This document shows, piece after piece, positions 13,260 to 32,717 of a stretch of 42,912 nt of DNA. Where the stretch lies: assembly GCA_030645995.1 (NCBI GenBank), contig JAUSMU010000404.1, forward strand, positions 1 to 42,912, given 5' to 3'. Position 1 is the first letter of the stretch. Each line of letters opens with the position of its first letter. The notes below the pieces were generated by a model. The model saw only the letters and a list, made by a program, of their open reading frames with translations, was not told the origin of the DNA and searched no databases. Position numbers and translations under genes: made by a program. This DNA is from Gammaproteobacteria bacterium (GTDB lineage: Bacteria > Pseudomonadota > Gammaproteobacteria > Pseudomonadales > Pseudohongiellaceae).

Positions 13260-15149
13260 ATGCTCGACGAAATCCCCCTTAGCCGCCCTGACACTCCGCT
13301 GCTTGACCAGATTCAAAGTCCGGACGACCTGAAAAAGATAGACCCAGCCCAATTGCAAGACCTCGCTCGGGAAGTCCGCAAATTCCTGCTCTATTCTGTC
13401 GGGCAGACCGGAGGCCACTTCGGCGCGGGACTGGGGGTCGTGGAGCTGACTATCGCGCTGCACTATGTCTTCAATACTCCGCACGATCGCCTGGTGTGGG
13501 ATGTCGGCCACCAGACTTATCCTCACAAGATTCTTACGGGTCGGCGCGAGCGCATGCTGACAATGCGACAGGCTGGAGGACTGGCAGCGTTCCCGAGTCG
13601 CGAGGAGAGCGAGTACGACTGTTTCGGAGTAGGACACTCCAGCACATCGATCAGCGCCGCACTCGGCATGTTGATCGCCGCCCGCGAGCAGCAGATCGAC
13701 CGCCACACGGTTGCGATTATCGGCGATGGCGCCATGACCGCAGGCATGGCCTTCGAGGCGCTCAATCATGCCGGCGATATCGACGAGAATCTGCTGGTGA
13801 TACTCAACGACAACAACATGTCGATCTCCAAAAACGTCGGCGGATTGTCGAGCTACTTTGCCCGTATGTGGGCGAGCCGCCCCTATAACTTCATTCGCAC
13901 GGGGGGCAAGAAGGTCCTTTCGCACATTCCTCCGGCTTTGAAAGCAGCGCACCGAGCGGAAGAGTATATGAAGGGCATGGTGTCACCTGGCACTCTGTTC
14001 GAGGAGATTGGATTCAACTACATCGGTCTCGTGGATGGACACGACACGCTCGGGCTGATCGATATCCTTGCCAACATCAAACAACTACGCGGCCCGCAGC
14101 TGTTGCACATCGTAACGCAGAAAGGCAAGGGCTATACGGCATCGGAATGCGATCCGTTCGGCATGCACGCCATGAACAAGGTCGAGGCGAAACAAGCACA
14201 ACCCGCCGCACGCAAGGTCGAAACTCCTACCTACTCGGCGGTGTTCGGACAGTGGCTGTGCGACATGGCGGTCGATCATCCGCTACTGGCCGCCATCACC
14301 CCGGCCATGGGGGCCGGATCGGGCATGGATCAGTTCGCCGAGAAATTTCCGCGCCAGTTCCACGATGTCGCCATAGCCGAACAACACGCCGTGACATTAG
14401 CCGCCGGGATGGCTTGTGACGGGCTGAAGCCTGTGGTGGCGATCTATTCGACATTTCTGCAACGCGCCTACGATCAACTGATACATGACGTAGCACTGCA
14501 AAACCTTGATGTGCTCTTTGCCATCGATCGCGCAGGACTGGTGGGCGAAGACGGCCCCACTCACGCCGGCAGTTTTGATCTGAGCTTCCTGCGCTGCATT
14601 CCTAATATGGTGGTCATGGCACCGAGCAATGAGAATGAAGCCCGGCAGATGCTCTACACTGGCTACTGTCACGAAGGGCCAGCTGCGGTTCGTTATCCGC
14701 GCGGCAAGGGGCCAGGTGTCGAGATACGCCAGGCGATGGAATTGCTCCCGATCGGCAAAGGCCTGGTTCGCAGAAGGGGTCAGGATATTGCCATTCTCGC
14801 ATTTGGCAGCATGGTGACTACCGCGCTGGAAGTTGCAGAGATTCTCGACGCCACGGTGGTGGATATGCGTTTCATCAAACCTCTTGATGAGGAGTTGACG
14901 GGAGACATGGCACGACAACATCAGTTGATCGTGACGTTGGAAGAAAACACAGTCATGGGTGGCGCAGGGTCGGCCATCAACGAGTTCCTACTGCACGCGG
15001 ACCATCGCGTTCCCGTCCTAAACCTAGGGCTGCCCGATGCATTCCTGAGCCACGGCAAAGTCCCTGACATCCTCGCCAAAGCCGGCCTGGACACAACCTC
15101 CATCGTCACCGCCATCCGCGCGCGACGCGCGCGGGTCAGACCCACGTAA
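13260..15149 (+). CDS. dxs: 1-deoxy-D-xylulose-5-phosphate synthase
   Basis: 629 residues from ATG 13260 ([15 protein letters not shown]), the usual Dxs start; the frame can be extended to 13194 without homology. Thiamine-diphosphate site [19 protein letters not shown] with NDNNMSIS, transketolase-type centre ([33 protein letters not shown]) and C-terminal domain are complete. It makes DXP from pyruvate and glyceraldehyde-3-phosphate, the first step of the MEP pathway, also feeding thiamine and pyridoxal. Its final residues RVRPT and stop codon are encoded inside a REP-like palindrome (15129-15149), so the C-terminal end may be altered from ancestral. Confidence 0.95.
15129..15149 (+). repeat. 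REP-like palindrome A (contains dxs stop)
   Basis: GCGCGGGTCAGACCCACGTAA: GGGTC-A-GACCC-type dyad with a GTAA tail. The same unit appears inverted at 16059-16079 and again directly at 32221-32240 (19-20 identical bases, and the following ATATTGA is also shared with 15151). It forms the left flank of the RAYT gene. Confidence 0.75.
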
Positions 15150-15175: not shown

Positions 15176-15949
15176 TCATTTCCCCGCAATTTTAAGGCTT
15201 GGAAGTATGATTTCTGCCTCAAAATCAATGCTATAGGAACCGCCGTTATCTCTGAGCGAGCAGAAGTCCGTCTGCTCAAGCACCTCACGGTAGCGAGCGG
15301 TTATGCCTAGATCTTTCTGGAATCGCCTTACAAACTCCTCGCTCCCAACGGCAAGACTCTTCGTCCATCGCTCGTCCCGCTGCAGATGTCCACGAAGCAA
15401 CGCCTCCTGAACCCAATGCTTGCGCGCATCACGCATCTCAACTTCGGTCGTGAATCCAAGTAACTTCAACAAAGCGTCTGAATCAATAATCCGGTAGCGC
15501 CTGACGAGAGACTGCAGTTCCAGATATCCACAATGTGCCCATTTTTCCGGGTGATTCACGACTCCCGCTCGCACCATGTTCATATCAATGTAGACTAGAC
15601 ATTCCGCAAGATAGCGCTCGCTATCAACCGCCGTGGCATGATAACGATCCTCCCAGAAAGCCCCTCGGCGCGCTTTACGCTGGTTGTATTCCTGGGCCGT
15701 TCTGCCTTCAATTAATTGCATTGCATCCGCTATCTCACCAAGGCCGCGATCCTGCACCAGGAGATGGATATGGTTTGACGTGACAACGTAATTCAATACG
15801 CACAGCTGGTAACGCTTTCGCGCCTGGAACAGCCAATAGAGCCAGCGCGCGCGGTCACGGGAGAATTTGAATAGAAACTGCTGCTGATGGCAGCGATGGG
15901 TTATGTGCCAGACATGTCCCTGCAGGAAAAAACGATTGGCGCGCGGCAT
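15176..15949 (-). CDS. REP-associated tyrosine transposase (RAYT, IS200/IS605-like Y1 HUH)
   Basis: 257 residues. The start ATG 15949 has a perfect GGAGGGCAAGG site. TnpA_REP features: N-terminal RANRFFLQGHVWHITHRC, the HUH motif NHIHLLV at about residue 59, and the RYLAECLVYIDMNMVRAGVV segment. RAYTs are single-copy domesticated transposases that cut single-stranded REP palindromes. REP-like dyads flank this gene in inverted orientation at 15129-15149 and 16059-16079. No IS ends, TnpB or target duplication are seen. Confidence 0.9.
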   Translation of the reverse strand: MPRANRFFLQGHVWHITHRCHQQQFLFKFSRDRARWLYWLFQARKRYQLCVLNYVVTSNHIHLLVQDRGLGEIADAMQLIEGRTAQEYNQRKARRGAFWEDRYHATAVDSERYLAECLVYIDMNMVRAGVVNHPEKWAHCGYLELQSLVRRYRIIDSDALLKLLGFTTEVEMRDARKHWVQEALLRGHLQRDERWTKSLAVGSEEFVRRFQKDLGITARYREVLEQTDFCSLRDNGGSYSIDFEAEIILPSLKIAGK

Positions 15950-16127: not shown

Positions 16128-16162
16128 GCATTGCGGTGCGGGCCTTGCGCGCGCCGCAATGC
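16128..16162. other. GC-rich hairpin
   Basis: GCATTGCGG (16128-16136) pairs exactly with CCGCAATGC (16154-16162) around a 17-base GC-rich loop, just upstream of the cobalamin riboswitch. It may be part of the RAYT/REP flank or an RNA structure of its own; there is no T-run, so it is not an obvious terminator. Confidence 0.5.
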
Positions 16163-16169
16163 TGATTAG

Positions 16170-16335
16170 TTGTTCAGGTGCTCGATGGCTGCTCGTTCAA
16201 GGACTAGCCGCTGTCGAGATAAATGGGAAGCTGGTTTGATTCCAGCGCTGCCCCCGCAACGGTAATGCGTGACATGCTCTCAAAGGCGTGTTGCATGAGC
16301 CCGACACCAGCCTGACGATGAATTACACCTGTGAT
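16170..16335 (+). ncRNA. cobalamin (adenosylcobalamin) riboswitch
   Basis: The conserved core is readable: GGGAAGCTGG...CCAGC stem at about 16225-16246, the L5/J region GCTGCCCCCGCAACGGTAA at 16247-16265, and the B12 box GCCCGACACCAGCCTG at 16299-16314. It sits about 100 bp upstream of the btuB-like gene. A T6 run at 16381-16386 and the 16416-16437 ribosome-site region lie downstream and could form the expression platform. It should lower expression of the B12 block when cobalamin is plentiful. Outer boundaries are approximate. Confidence 0.93.
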
Positions 16336-23509: not shown

Positions 23510-23630
23510 GAGCGGGGTTGGCCGGGGTGGGGTCGTCAGGACACGCCCGTGAATACTTCCCTGTAGGGCTCGGTCGCGCCATCCATGGCGCTCAACGGTC
23601 CTGCCTGGCCCACCCCGCCCAACCCCGCTC
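23510..23630 (+). repeat. large palindromic intergenic element, copy 1
   Basis: Outer arms (from GAGCGGGGTTGG to its complement at CCAACCCCGCTC) match over about 27 of 32 positions. Between them lies the shared core: AGGACACGCCCGTGAA, a small hairpin, GGGCTCGG and the perfect palindrome GCGCCATCCATGGCGC, then CAACGGTCCT. The RNA or single strand would fold as an outer stem carrying two inner hairpins. It begins 23 bp past the GGDEF-EAL stop. See copies at 23781, 32080 and 32493. Confidence 0.8.
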
Positions 23631-23780
23631 TCACTTCTGTGGAACGTCGAAAGTCACAACCAGCTCAAACGTATGAGATGCAAGCACTGCTCATCTCGTG
23701 AGCACATCAGCATGCTCCGCTCCCCCGCAAGTATGTTCATCCTCGCCCAGACTCCGGGTTTCCGCGAACCACTGCAGCCA

Positions 23781-23898
23781 GATCTTTGGGTGGCCTTGGC
23801 CCGTTCAGGACCGTGTGCCGCCAGGGATGGCGGCACCCGAGCCCCCCATGGATGGGTTCACGGGCGTGTCCTGAACGGGCCAAGGCCACCCAAAGATC
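23781..23898 (-). repeat. large palindromic intergenic element, copy 2
   Basis: Perfect 30-bp inverted repeat (23781-23810 against 23869-23898) enclosing a 58-bp core. The core carries GTGCCGCCAGGGATGGCGGCAC and CCCATGGATGGG hairpins and CACGGGCGTGTCCTG. The core is that of copy 1 in opposite orientation; the arms share no sequence with copy 1 except the last AGGA. It ends 14 bp from the ribA stop. Confidence 0.85.
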
Positions 23899-23912
23899 GA
23901 CCCACAGCGTGA

Positions 23913-32079: not shown

Positions 32080-32188
32080 GGCGGTGTGACGGAGGCCTAT
32101 GGAGGACACGCCGTGAACCCATCCGTGGGGGCTCGCTTTCGCCATCCATGGCTCAAGACGGTCCACCATGGGCCTCCCCCACACCGCC
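32080..32188 (+). repeat. large palindromic intergenic element, copy 3
   Basis: Outer arms GGCGGTGTGACGGAGGCC and its partner GGCCTCCCCCACACCGCC pair over about 23 of 27 positions, with G-U-compatible changes. The core AGGACACG-CCGTGAACCCATCCGTGGGGGCTCG-...-CGCCATCCATGGC-...-GACGGTCC matches copies 1, 2 and 4. Located upstream of glyA. Confidence 0.8.
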
Positions 32189-32220
32189 ACCCTACCCTCA
32201 AAGAGAATTTCCTCCCTCCT

Positions 32221-32240
32221 CGCGGGTCAGACCCACGTAA
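32221..32240 (+). repeat. REP-like palindrome C
   Basis: CGCGGGTCAGACCCACGTAA is identical over 20 bases to the copy at 15130-15149, 17 kb away, and both are followed by [T/G]ATATTGA. It lies just after palindromic element copy 3. Confidence 0.75.
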
Positions 32241-32389
32241 GATATTGAATTAATAAAAATAGAGCACCCGGAAGGCCTTCTTTAGAGCGTTAAGAAGCTC
32301 TTATTGCCGCAAAAAAATCGACATTTGATTAGCTTGAGAACTGCTAATTTGAGGACGTATTTGCTGGCTTTAAGCACGCTTTAACCTGT

Positions 32390-32444
32390 CGACCCGCGCT
32401 TATTAAGAGCATTATCAGCAGGTTATGGGGGTTCGACCCGCGCT
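32390..32444. repeat. two 11-bp REP-like half-units
   Basis: CGACCCGCGCT occurs at 32390-32400 and 32434-32444 in the same orientation, 44 bp apart. The GACCCGCGC part equals the half-dyad of REP copy B. They may be degenerate REP units. Confidence 0.4.
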
Positions 32445-32492
32445 AGACGCAGTTGAACAATGGCTGAAAGCACACGAGTAACGCGGATGTCA

Positions 32493-32610
32493 GCGCGGCG
32501 TAGGCGATGACGATGGGCAGGACCGTTGAGCGCCATGGATGGCGCGATCCGAGCCCCACATGGATGTGCTCGTGGGCGTGTCCTGACCATCGTCATCGCC
32601 AGCGCCGTGC
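32493..32610 (-). repeat. large palindromic intergenic element, copy 4
   Basis: Outer arms from GCGCGGCGTAGGCGATGACG to its partner CGTCATCGCCAGCGCCGTGC match at about 26 of 30 positions. The core, in the orientation of copy 2, contains GCGCCATGGATGGCGC, CGAGCCCC, CACATGGATGTG and GGGCGTGTCCTG. Arm sequence is unrelated to the other three copies apart from the AGGA/TCCT next to the core. Confidence 0.8.
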
Positions 32611-32687: not shown

Positions 32688-32717
32688 ATGGCTCAGTTTA
32701 ATCATCTACCCCATTAA
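32688..32717 (+). pseudogene. truncated gene start (MAQF...), possibly ettA
   Basis: ATGGCTCAG starts a nine-codon frame ending in TAA. A GGGAA site lies upstream and CATAATGCCCGCGCC (promoter -10/discriminator-like) about 45 bp before it. MAQ(Y/F) is the start of EttA, often encoded divergent from glyA, and base composition falls sharply right after these codons. I read it as a housekeeping gene front cut off by the accessory region; only four residues support the name. Confidence 0.25.

Follow-up and report, generated by a model that had tools for sequence, protein, structure and literature searches.

The window analysed here, a stretch of 42,912 nucleotides, is the entire contig C477 of a draft gammaproteobacterial genome (G000; 3.8 Mb in 502 contigs). 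It carries four palindromic elements, E1 to E4, built around a common core. The preliminary description of this DNA had placed four such elements at the positions given below, and all of them are present there, with a mean column identity of 85% between their aligned cores. The core sequence AGGACACGCC occurs exactly four times in the window, every time within one of the elements. Together they form two inverted pairs, a feature that had gone unmentioned: E1 (+) with E2 (−) and E3 (+) with E4 (−), where the signs denote the strand that reads the core. Strands given for the elements and their hairpins are those of the predicted functional RNA, which is opposite to the core.

In the first pair, E1 (23510..23630) has its predicted functional strand on minus and its core AGGACACGCC on plus, an assignment derived from the mismatch bias described below. 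Its hairpin A (23576..23591, minus; GCGCC-AUGGAU-GGCGC) exposes the loop AUGGAU and is present in the minimum-energy fold, and its hairpin B (23554..23565, minus; UACAGGGAAGUA) is near the CsrA SELEX consensus and absent as such from that fold. A spacer (23631..23780) separates E1 from the outward-pointing E2 (23781..23898, plus), the arms of which pair perfectly over 31 bp around hairpin A (23815..23836, plus; loop AGGGAU) and hairpin B (23845..23856, plus; CCC-AUGGAU-GGG), the latter aligned to the Rfam TwoAYGGAY model. In the second pair, E3 (about 32080..32188, minus) contains hairpin B (32118..32129, minus; plus-strand sequence CCCATCCGTGGG, RNA loop ACGGAU) and hairpin A (32141..32152, minus; plus-strand sequence GCCATCCATGGC, RNA loop AUGGAU). 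After the spacer between them (32189..32492), E4 (about 32493..32610, plus) follows with hairpin A (32530..32545, plus; GCGCC-AUGGAU-GGCGC) and hairpin B (32557..32568, plus; CAC-AUGGAU-GUG); it matches the Rfam model RF01731 at 29.4 bits, below the cut-off. The window additionally holds a gene for a RAYT-like transposase (15176-15949, minus; NCBIfam NF047646, 72.2 bits against a cut-off of 80) and a cobalamin riboswitch (16159-16329, plus; 67.7 bits) located 5' of a 628-aa open reading frame. At about 32690-32700, similarity to genome G004 is lost some 11 bases inside a gene for an ABC-F ATPase; G004 has this gene intact, whereas here it seems to be broken or rearranged.

The outer arms of the elements pair with themselves over 31 nt at 100% in E2, 38 nt at 82% in E1, 28 nt at 86% in E3 and 31 nt at 87% in E4. 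Counts of arms, strands, motifs and promoters were taken from 245 of 305 rows, with weak rows, rows with less than 45 nt of flank and duplicates left out. Across these 245 elements from this and other genomes, arms had a median identity of 0.76 with their own partners, compared with 0.41 between different elements, which bears out the earlier claim of self-pairing arms. The accompanying claim that the arms differ wholly between copies holds only in part. Many do differ, but 21 of the 245 left arms have an identical twin in another element, 85 of 245 have a twin at 80% identity or more, and at some orthologous sites the arms have been inherited. Genome G080 has essentially one arm sequence common to the 20 copies listed.

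Structural constraint is evident in the core as well. Paired cells reached 96.2%, against 78.9% in shuffles and 32-42% when the partners were slid, and 16 of 20 core pairs were changed on both sides, against 9.4 in shuffles; covariation by further pair types was not clearly above shuffles (37 of 500 reached the value). All four elements of the window folded more stably than their dinucleotide shuffles, with z-scores of −4.9 to −11.1 on the strand originally read and −5.2 to −14.0 on the opposite strand. A covarying structure is thereby established computationally, and selection on structure, as first proposed, is supported by the covarying core pairs and by arm mismatches that are strand-biased as expected of a folded RNA. 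The architecture suggested at the same time, an outer stem with two inner hairpins, stands at the level of the family through its covariation, but single-copy folds reproduce it incompletely. The outer stem appeared in the minimum-energy folds of all four elements, whereas only E1 and E2 formed hairpin A and none of the four formed hairpin B as modelled, which argues against a rigid structural reading.

The mismatches within the arms indicate which strand folds. Read on the core strand, isolated arm mismatches comprised 186 A·C and 25 G·T (194 of 245 elements), a split found both in the genus (67 vs 17) and in the named genomes (119 vs 8). In a dereplicated set, A·C outnumbered G·T by 85 to 13 (105 of 125 elements used), with 53 elements leaning towards A·C and 7 towards G·T (sign test, p about 4e-10). 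On the functional strand of this set, purine-purine mismatches numbered 54 and pyrimidine-pyrimidine mismatches 9. Genome G096 (18 elements) showed the same direction weakly, with 12 A·C and 5 G·T. An A·C mismatch on the core strand is a tolerated G·U pair on its complement. Selection therefore acts on the fold of the strand opposite AGGACACGCC, as RNA or as single-stranded DNA, and the strand on which the elements were originally read has to be exchanged for the other one. This comparison of A·C with G·T mismatches is simple and separates strand-specific, RNA-like selection from selection on double-stranded DNA in palindromic repeats.

On the functional strand, both inner loops read A-N-G-G-A, where N is any of the four bases, in 150 aligned cores. 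The GGA is invariant save for two cells, one per loop. This loop rule is likewise established by computation, and its strand specificity is marked: of 245 elements, 211 have at least two ANGGA motifs on the functional strand and the remaining 34 have one, compared with a single element of the 245 that has at least two on the core strand. The two motifs lie 23-28 nt apart in 195 of the 210 short cores measured. According to a review (PMC7652899), the CsrA SELEX consensus is RUACARGGAUGU, with GGA in a hairpin loop of mostly six bases, most of the selected hairpins have four or fewer contiguous pairs, and CsrA bridges sites 10-63 nt apart, best above 18. Judged by sequence, the elements thus have GGA in hexaloop hairpins at the dual-site spacing of a CsrA/RsmA-binding RNA, and csrA was found in all 14 genus genomes. 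Several hairpins A are longer than four pairs, which counts against the CsrA reading. In genome G080, where the copies are part of a larger repeat described below, that repeat bears further ANGGA-loop hairpins in the four loci scanned, for example GCGGTGCATGGATGCACCGC.

An RNA family of this type is already represented in Rfam. An E-value scan of the first pair matched RF01731, TwoAYGGAY, to E2 at 23775-23905 on the plus strand (49.2 bits, gathering cut-off 43), a match that the default Rfam scan of the whole window missed. Genome-wide, RF01731 gave 52 matches in 9 of the 14 genus genomes, none of them at or over the cut-off in any of the 14 (best 42.9). E2 is missing from these matches, which indicates that the filters of the scan lose real ones; most copies nevertheless score low. 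All 46 matches compared, from nine genomes, overlap copies of the repeat and lie on the predicted functional strand, a further 6 in G011 and G013 falling outside the comparison. One paper lists TwoAYGGAY as probably an RNA and probably not cis-regulatory, occurring in the human gut, Gammaproteobacteria and Clostridiales (PMC2864571); in Rfam, its type is cis-regulatory. Another paper predicts that CsrA binds it and describes little conservation of its external stem (PMC4333381). The variable arms of the present elements correspond to that external stem. The two share the pair of hairpins with AYGGAY-type loops, the poorly conserved stem around them and, among the taxa listed for TwoAYGGAY, the Gammaproteobacteria. 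Unlike TwoAYGGAY, the repeats described here number dozens per genome and form outward-pointing pairs with or without genes inside. They also accept any base as N of ANGGA, and most copies stay under the Rfam cut-off. In hairpin B, N is a pyrimidine in only 83 of 150 cores, so the loop rule is wider than the name AYGGAY implies.

Signals of independent transcription were sought around the elements. A crude consensus scan placed a sigma70-like site upstream of 1 of 235 elements, compared with 2 on the reverse strand and 6 in shuffles, and a GacA-type box upstream of 0 of 235. No T-run follows the stem, the T content there remaining flat at about 0.2. Within the reach of this crude scan, the elements thus showed neither the promoter or GacA box of their own nor the terminator that would mark a stand-alone Rsm-type sRNA gene. 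The idea that the spacer harbours divergent promoters for stand-alone sRNA genes was rejected, as the scan gave no promoter signal. Flanking genes, called with a crude ORF caller at the 45 pairs whose loci had an open reading frame on either side, were convergent in 16 cases, tandem in 20 and divergent in 9. A role as terminators, which the preliminary description had put forward for testing, is not supported by a stem without a T-run in such a mixed context. That the elements are bidirectional intrinsic terminators or stabilisers of 3' ends is accordingly highly improbable: their stems are strong and several cores lie only 39-49 nt from the neighbouring open reading frame, but the flat T content and the mixed arrangement of genes speak against it, and terminators would have no need for conserved loops. 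The lack of promoter, GacA-box and terminator signals, combined with the mixed gene context, instead suggests that the RNA is carried within longer transcripts and would be made by their read-through.

The covariance model R1, built from the four window cores, was used for the genome-wide search that had been proposed at the outset, and it recovered 45 copies in this genome. Across 14 genus genomes, R1 found 14-50 copies each. A stricter scan of the class located the repeat in 21 of 143 genomes, this one included, and a pattern scan of named genomes returned at least 120 stretches. Among the matches listed, 75 of 80 had titles that point to Gammaproteobacteria, with Xanthomonas, Stenotrophomonas, Marinobacter, Microbulbifer, Halopseudomonas and Cellvibrio as carriers, and R1 confirmed the element in 114 of 120 stretches. 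One model match (L207, 7765-7828; 56.1 bits) lies in a contig whose title names Bacillus subtilis, and this assembly may be contaminated.

Pairing is as regular as the dispersal is wide, and both the multi-copy dispersal and the outward-pointing inverted pairs are established computationally. In this genome, 32 of the 45 copies form 16 pairs, each a + followed by a −, and neighbours within 1 kb are all so oriented. In nine genomes, 84 of 87 neighbours within 1 kb were + then −, the rest being one each of ++, −+ and −− (from 328 of 343 matches; those set aside include 3 readings of palindromic sites on their second strand and 6 weak hits of 28.2 bits). Start-to-start distances within close pairs range from 169 to 969 bp. 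Such pairs include 30 of 45 copies in this genome, 8 of 29 in G005 and 10 of 32 in G001; single copies are also common. Since both members of a pair face outward, a transcript that traverses the pair in either direction would meet one of them in the folding orientation.

Other arrangements were encountered in individual loci. L254 holds an alternating + − + − array with a period of about 303 bp, L170 (Xanthomonas euroxanthea) has one resembling it, and direct arrays of elements at about 150-180 bp were seen in L152 and L204. In the spacer at C217 (L028), additional right halves of the element are joined at GACCGTCTTGAG, a pattern that looks like the tandem addition of half-elements. In six loci (L041, L044, L035, L037, L075 and L036), the hairpin A loop is enlarged by an insertion of some 50 nt, the second half of which resembles, by eye, the cargo end of the C496 pair described next, as if the loop were an insertion site.

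Some pairs enclose genes, and a number of these resemble phage-defence genes. Two PADLOC candidate models, HEC-01A (305 bits) and HEC-01B (53 bits), are matched within the C496 pair by an AAA ATPase and its partner. In G001, the C69 pair encloses a Fic protein (SoFic model, 134 bits) with a protein without family, and the C5 pair encloses a DUF6988 protein (PDC-S52 model, 40 bits). The C5 pair of G010 holds a rhomboid, and the pairs at C214 and G004:C45 hold proteins without family. A Pfam match was lacking in 5 of the 9 proteins scanned, one of these five (G004:C49) being located next to a lone element where the contig ends and hence only possibly within a pair. The open reading frames of the cargo pairs examined included no transposase. 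The same sites also vary between species. In G004 and G008, the C496 site is a gene-free pair with a short spacer, and the right half of an older element persists at the end of the G000 cargo. C353 is absent from G007. At the site of the first window pair, G004 and G008 carry a single chimeric element of two left halves, with different junctions, and in G007 the E2 arms persist, enclosing a loop of 12 nt. G008 has, at the C214 site, an inverted pair of short repeats that we take, by eye, to be an ordinary REPIN. These comparisons of sequence indicate differences in state rather than prove transposition. For all 13 non-window pairs tested, at least one flank was present in G004, and most of the sites fetched also carry elements there, which suggests that the copies are mostly old. 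Two apparent rearrangements were set aside. The one seeming spacer inversion between species (C473 against G004:C57) consists of an inverted duplication where a contig begins and probably arose in assembly, and the C461/C33 similarity (83% over 2.9 kb) more likely reflects homologous loci of a mixed assembly than a fresh transposition.

A mobiliser was sought among the RAYT-like transposases. This genome has a single Y1_Tnp match, the gene in the window; the sequence CGCGGGTCAGACCCACGTAA (15130-15149) that flanks it is found again in the E3-E4 spacer (about 32221-32240), and many elements end, by eye, in GTAG or GTGG. In the genus, 30 Y1_Tnp loci, each taken with about 1.5 kb on either side, gave no significant match to the repeat, the sole one having an E-value of 2.2. 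RAYT was rejected as the mobiliser on this ground, and with it a RAYT/REPIN origin. The same result bears on a broader alternative, in which it is single-stranded DNA that folds, into a strand-specific hairpin on which a recombinase or HUH transposase would act in trans, in the manner of attC or REP sites, with the pairs as ends of a mobile unit and the conserved loops read by the enzyme. The strand bias fits folding of single-stranded DNA equally, and the inverted pairing of close neighbours, the variation of presence, absence and cargo at the same site, and cargo without a recognised mobility gene would all suit it. Set against these points are the free N of ANGGA, which fits the CsrA rule, and the 30 loci without a match. 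Integron attC sites, moreover, lie in direct orientation, whereas the present sites are inverted. We regard this alternative as unlikely.

Orthologous sites reveal how the arms change. Arms are identical in two or three species at C356 left, C347 left and C214. Between G000 and G004, they are widely different yet self-pairing at C305 left, C217 left, C82 right and C473b left, and at C356 right, they are widely different across three species, each still self-pairing. The G004 element at C347 right is a mosaic, its left arm being of the G007 type and its right arm of the G000 type. Regeneration of arms by a copying mechanism, as previously suggested, agrees with the joint replacement of both arms at some orthologous sites, but exchange with other copies gives the same outcome. 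The arm patterns fit a swapping of entire elements or of halves among the copies, after which pairing was selected for or one arm was corrected from the other. The arms would then diverge because pairing alone is selected, with G-U as a tolerated intermediate, and because elements or their halves are swapped between copies.

The arms could also be kept by mutational correction of quasi-palindromes, in plain MITE- or REP-like palindromes that have no RNA function and resemble CsrA sites by coincidence. The patchy occurrence in the class, the mixed gene context and the paired replacement of arms would agree with such an origin, as would the situation in G080, where the element sits within a larger repeat with inverted ends. 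The 20 G080 loci (L332-L351), in which near-identical arms recur, each lie inside this larger repeat, and inverted ends are visible around the copies. A MITE would have both terminal inverted repeats and a target-site duplication, and no duplication was established. Template correction, however, would not account for a roughly sevenfold excess of A·C over G·T on one strand, and the invariant GGA with its free N would be left unexplained. We therefore hold plain palindromes to be decidedly improbable.

The repeats also resemble several other known systems in part. Like the Csr/Rsm decoy RNAs (CsrB, CsrC and RsmX/Y/Z), they present GGA in hairpin hexaloops at a bridging distance, but they carry two sites each and are highly repeated, and the GacA box, promoter and terminator were not found. 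They are dispersed, palindromic and arranged in inverted pairs, as are REPINs and RAYT-associated REPs, but at about 110-120 nt with a fixed inner RNA core they are of another build, and they matched 0 of 30 Y1_Tnp loci. Small accessory and defence-like genes between structured sites recall integron gene cassettes; here, the sites are inverted (84 of 87 close neighbours), with two per cassette. MITEs and mobile insertion cassettes, too, are non-autonomous units bounded by inverted structures, with or without passenger genes; neither a parent transposase nor a target-site duplication was identified for the present repeats. The core sequence was not found in the literature searched, and the available portions of the literature on CsrA or RsmA with dispersed repeats, REPs or MITEs, or on Halomonas repeats, contained no description of them.

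Taken as a whole, the elements are probably dispersed MITE-like repeats that encode a TwoAYGGAY-type and likely CsrA-binding RNA on the strand opposite to the one first read. CsrA binding, function and mobility are what we infer from the patterns above. A long outer stem, kept by pairing rather than by sequence, would bear two A-N-G-G-A-N hexaloop hairpins, and the two loops, mostly 23-28 nt apart, could be bridged by one CsrA/RsmA dimer. The RNA could serve as a decoy that titrates CsrA, or as a site at which bound CsrA acts on the host transcript, and the pair may spread as a non-autonomous mobile unit. A more far-reaching and still doubtful proposal is that of a cassette-like mobile system of Gammaproteobacteria, in which outward-pointing, CsrA-binding boundary RNAs of the TwoAYGGAY type flank exchangeable cargo, including defence-like genes, and the copies together form a dispersed CsrA sponge.

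The RNA is of a known type in a new setting, namely its paired, multi-copy state. A widespread repeat has now been assigned a strand and a testable protein partner, and an Rfam family without an assigned function has been linked to dispersed, mobile-looking repeats. This suggests that such repeats could supply a genome with many sites to which a global regulator binds. If the cassette proposal is true, any transcript leaving a cassette would carry a CsrA site, and tens of copies could tune the Csr/Rsm regulon of the host. If the exchange of cargo is confirmed, the pairs would provide an additional route, outside integrons, for shuffling accessory and defence genes.
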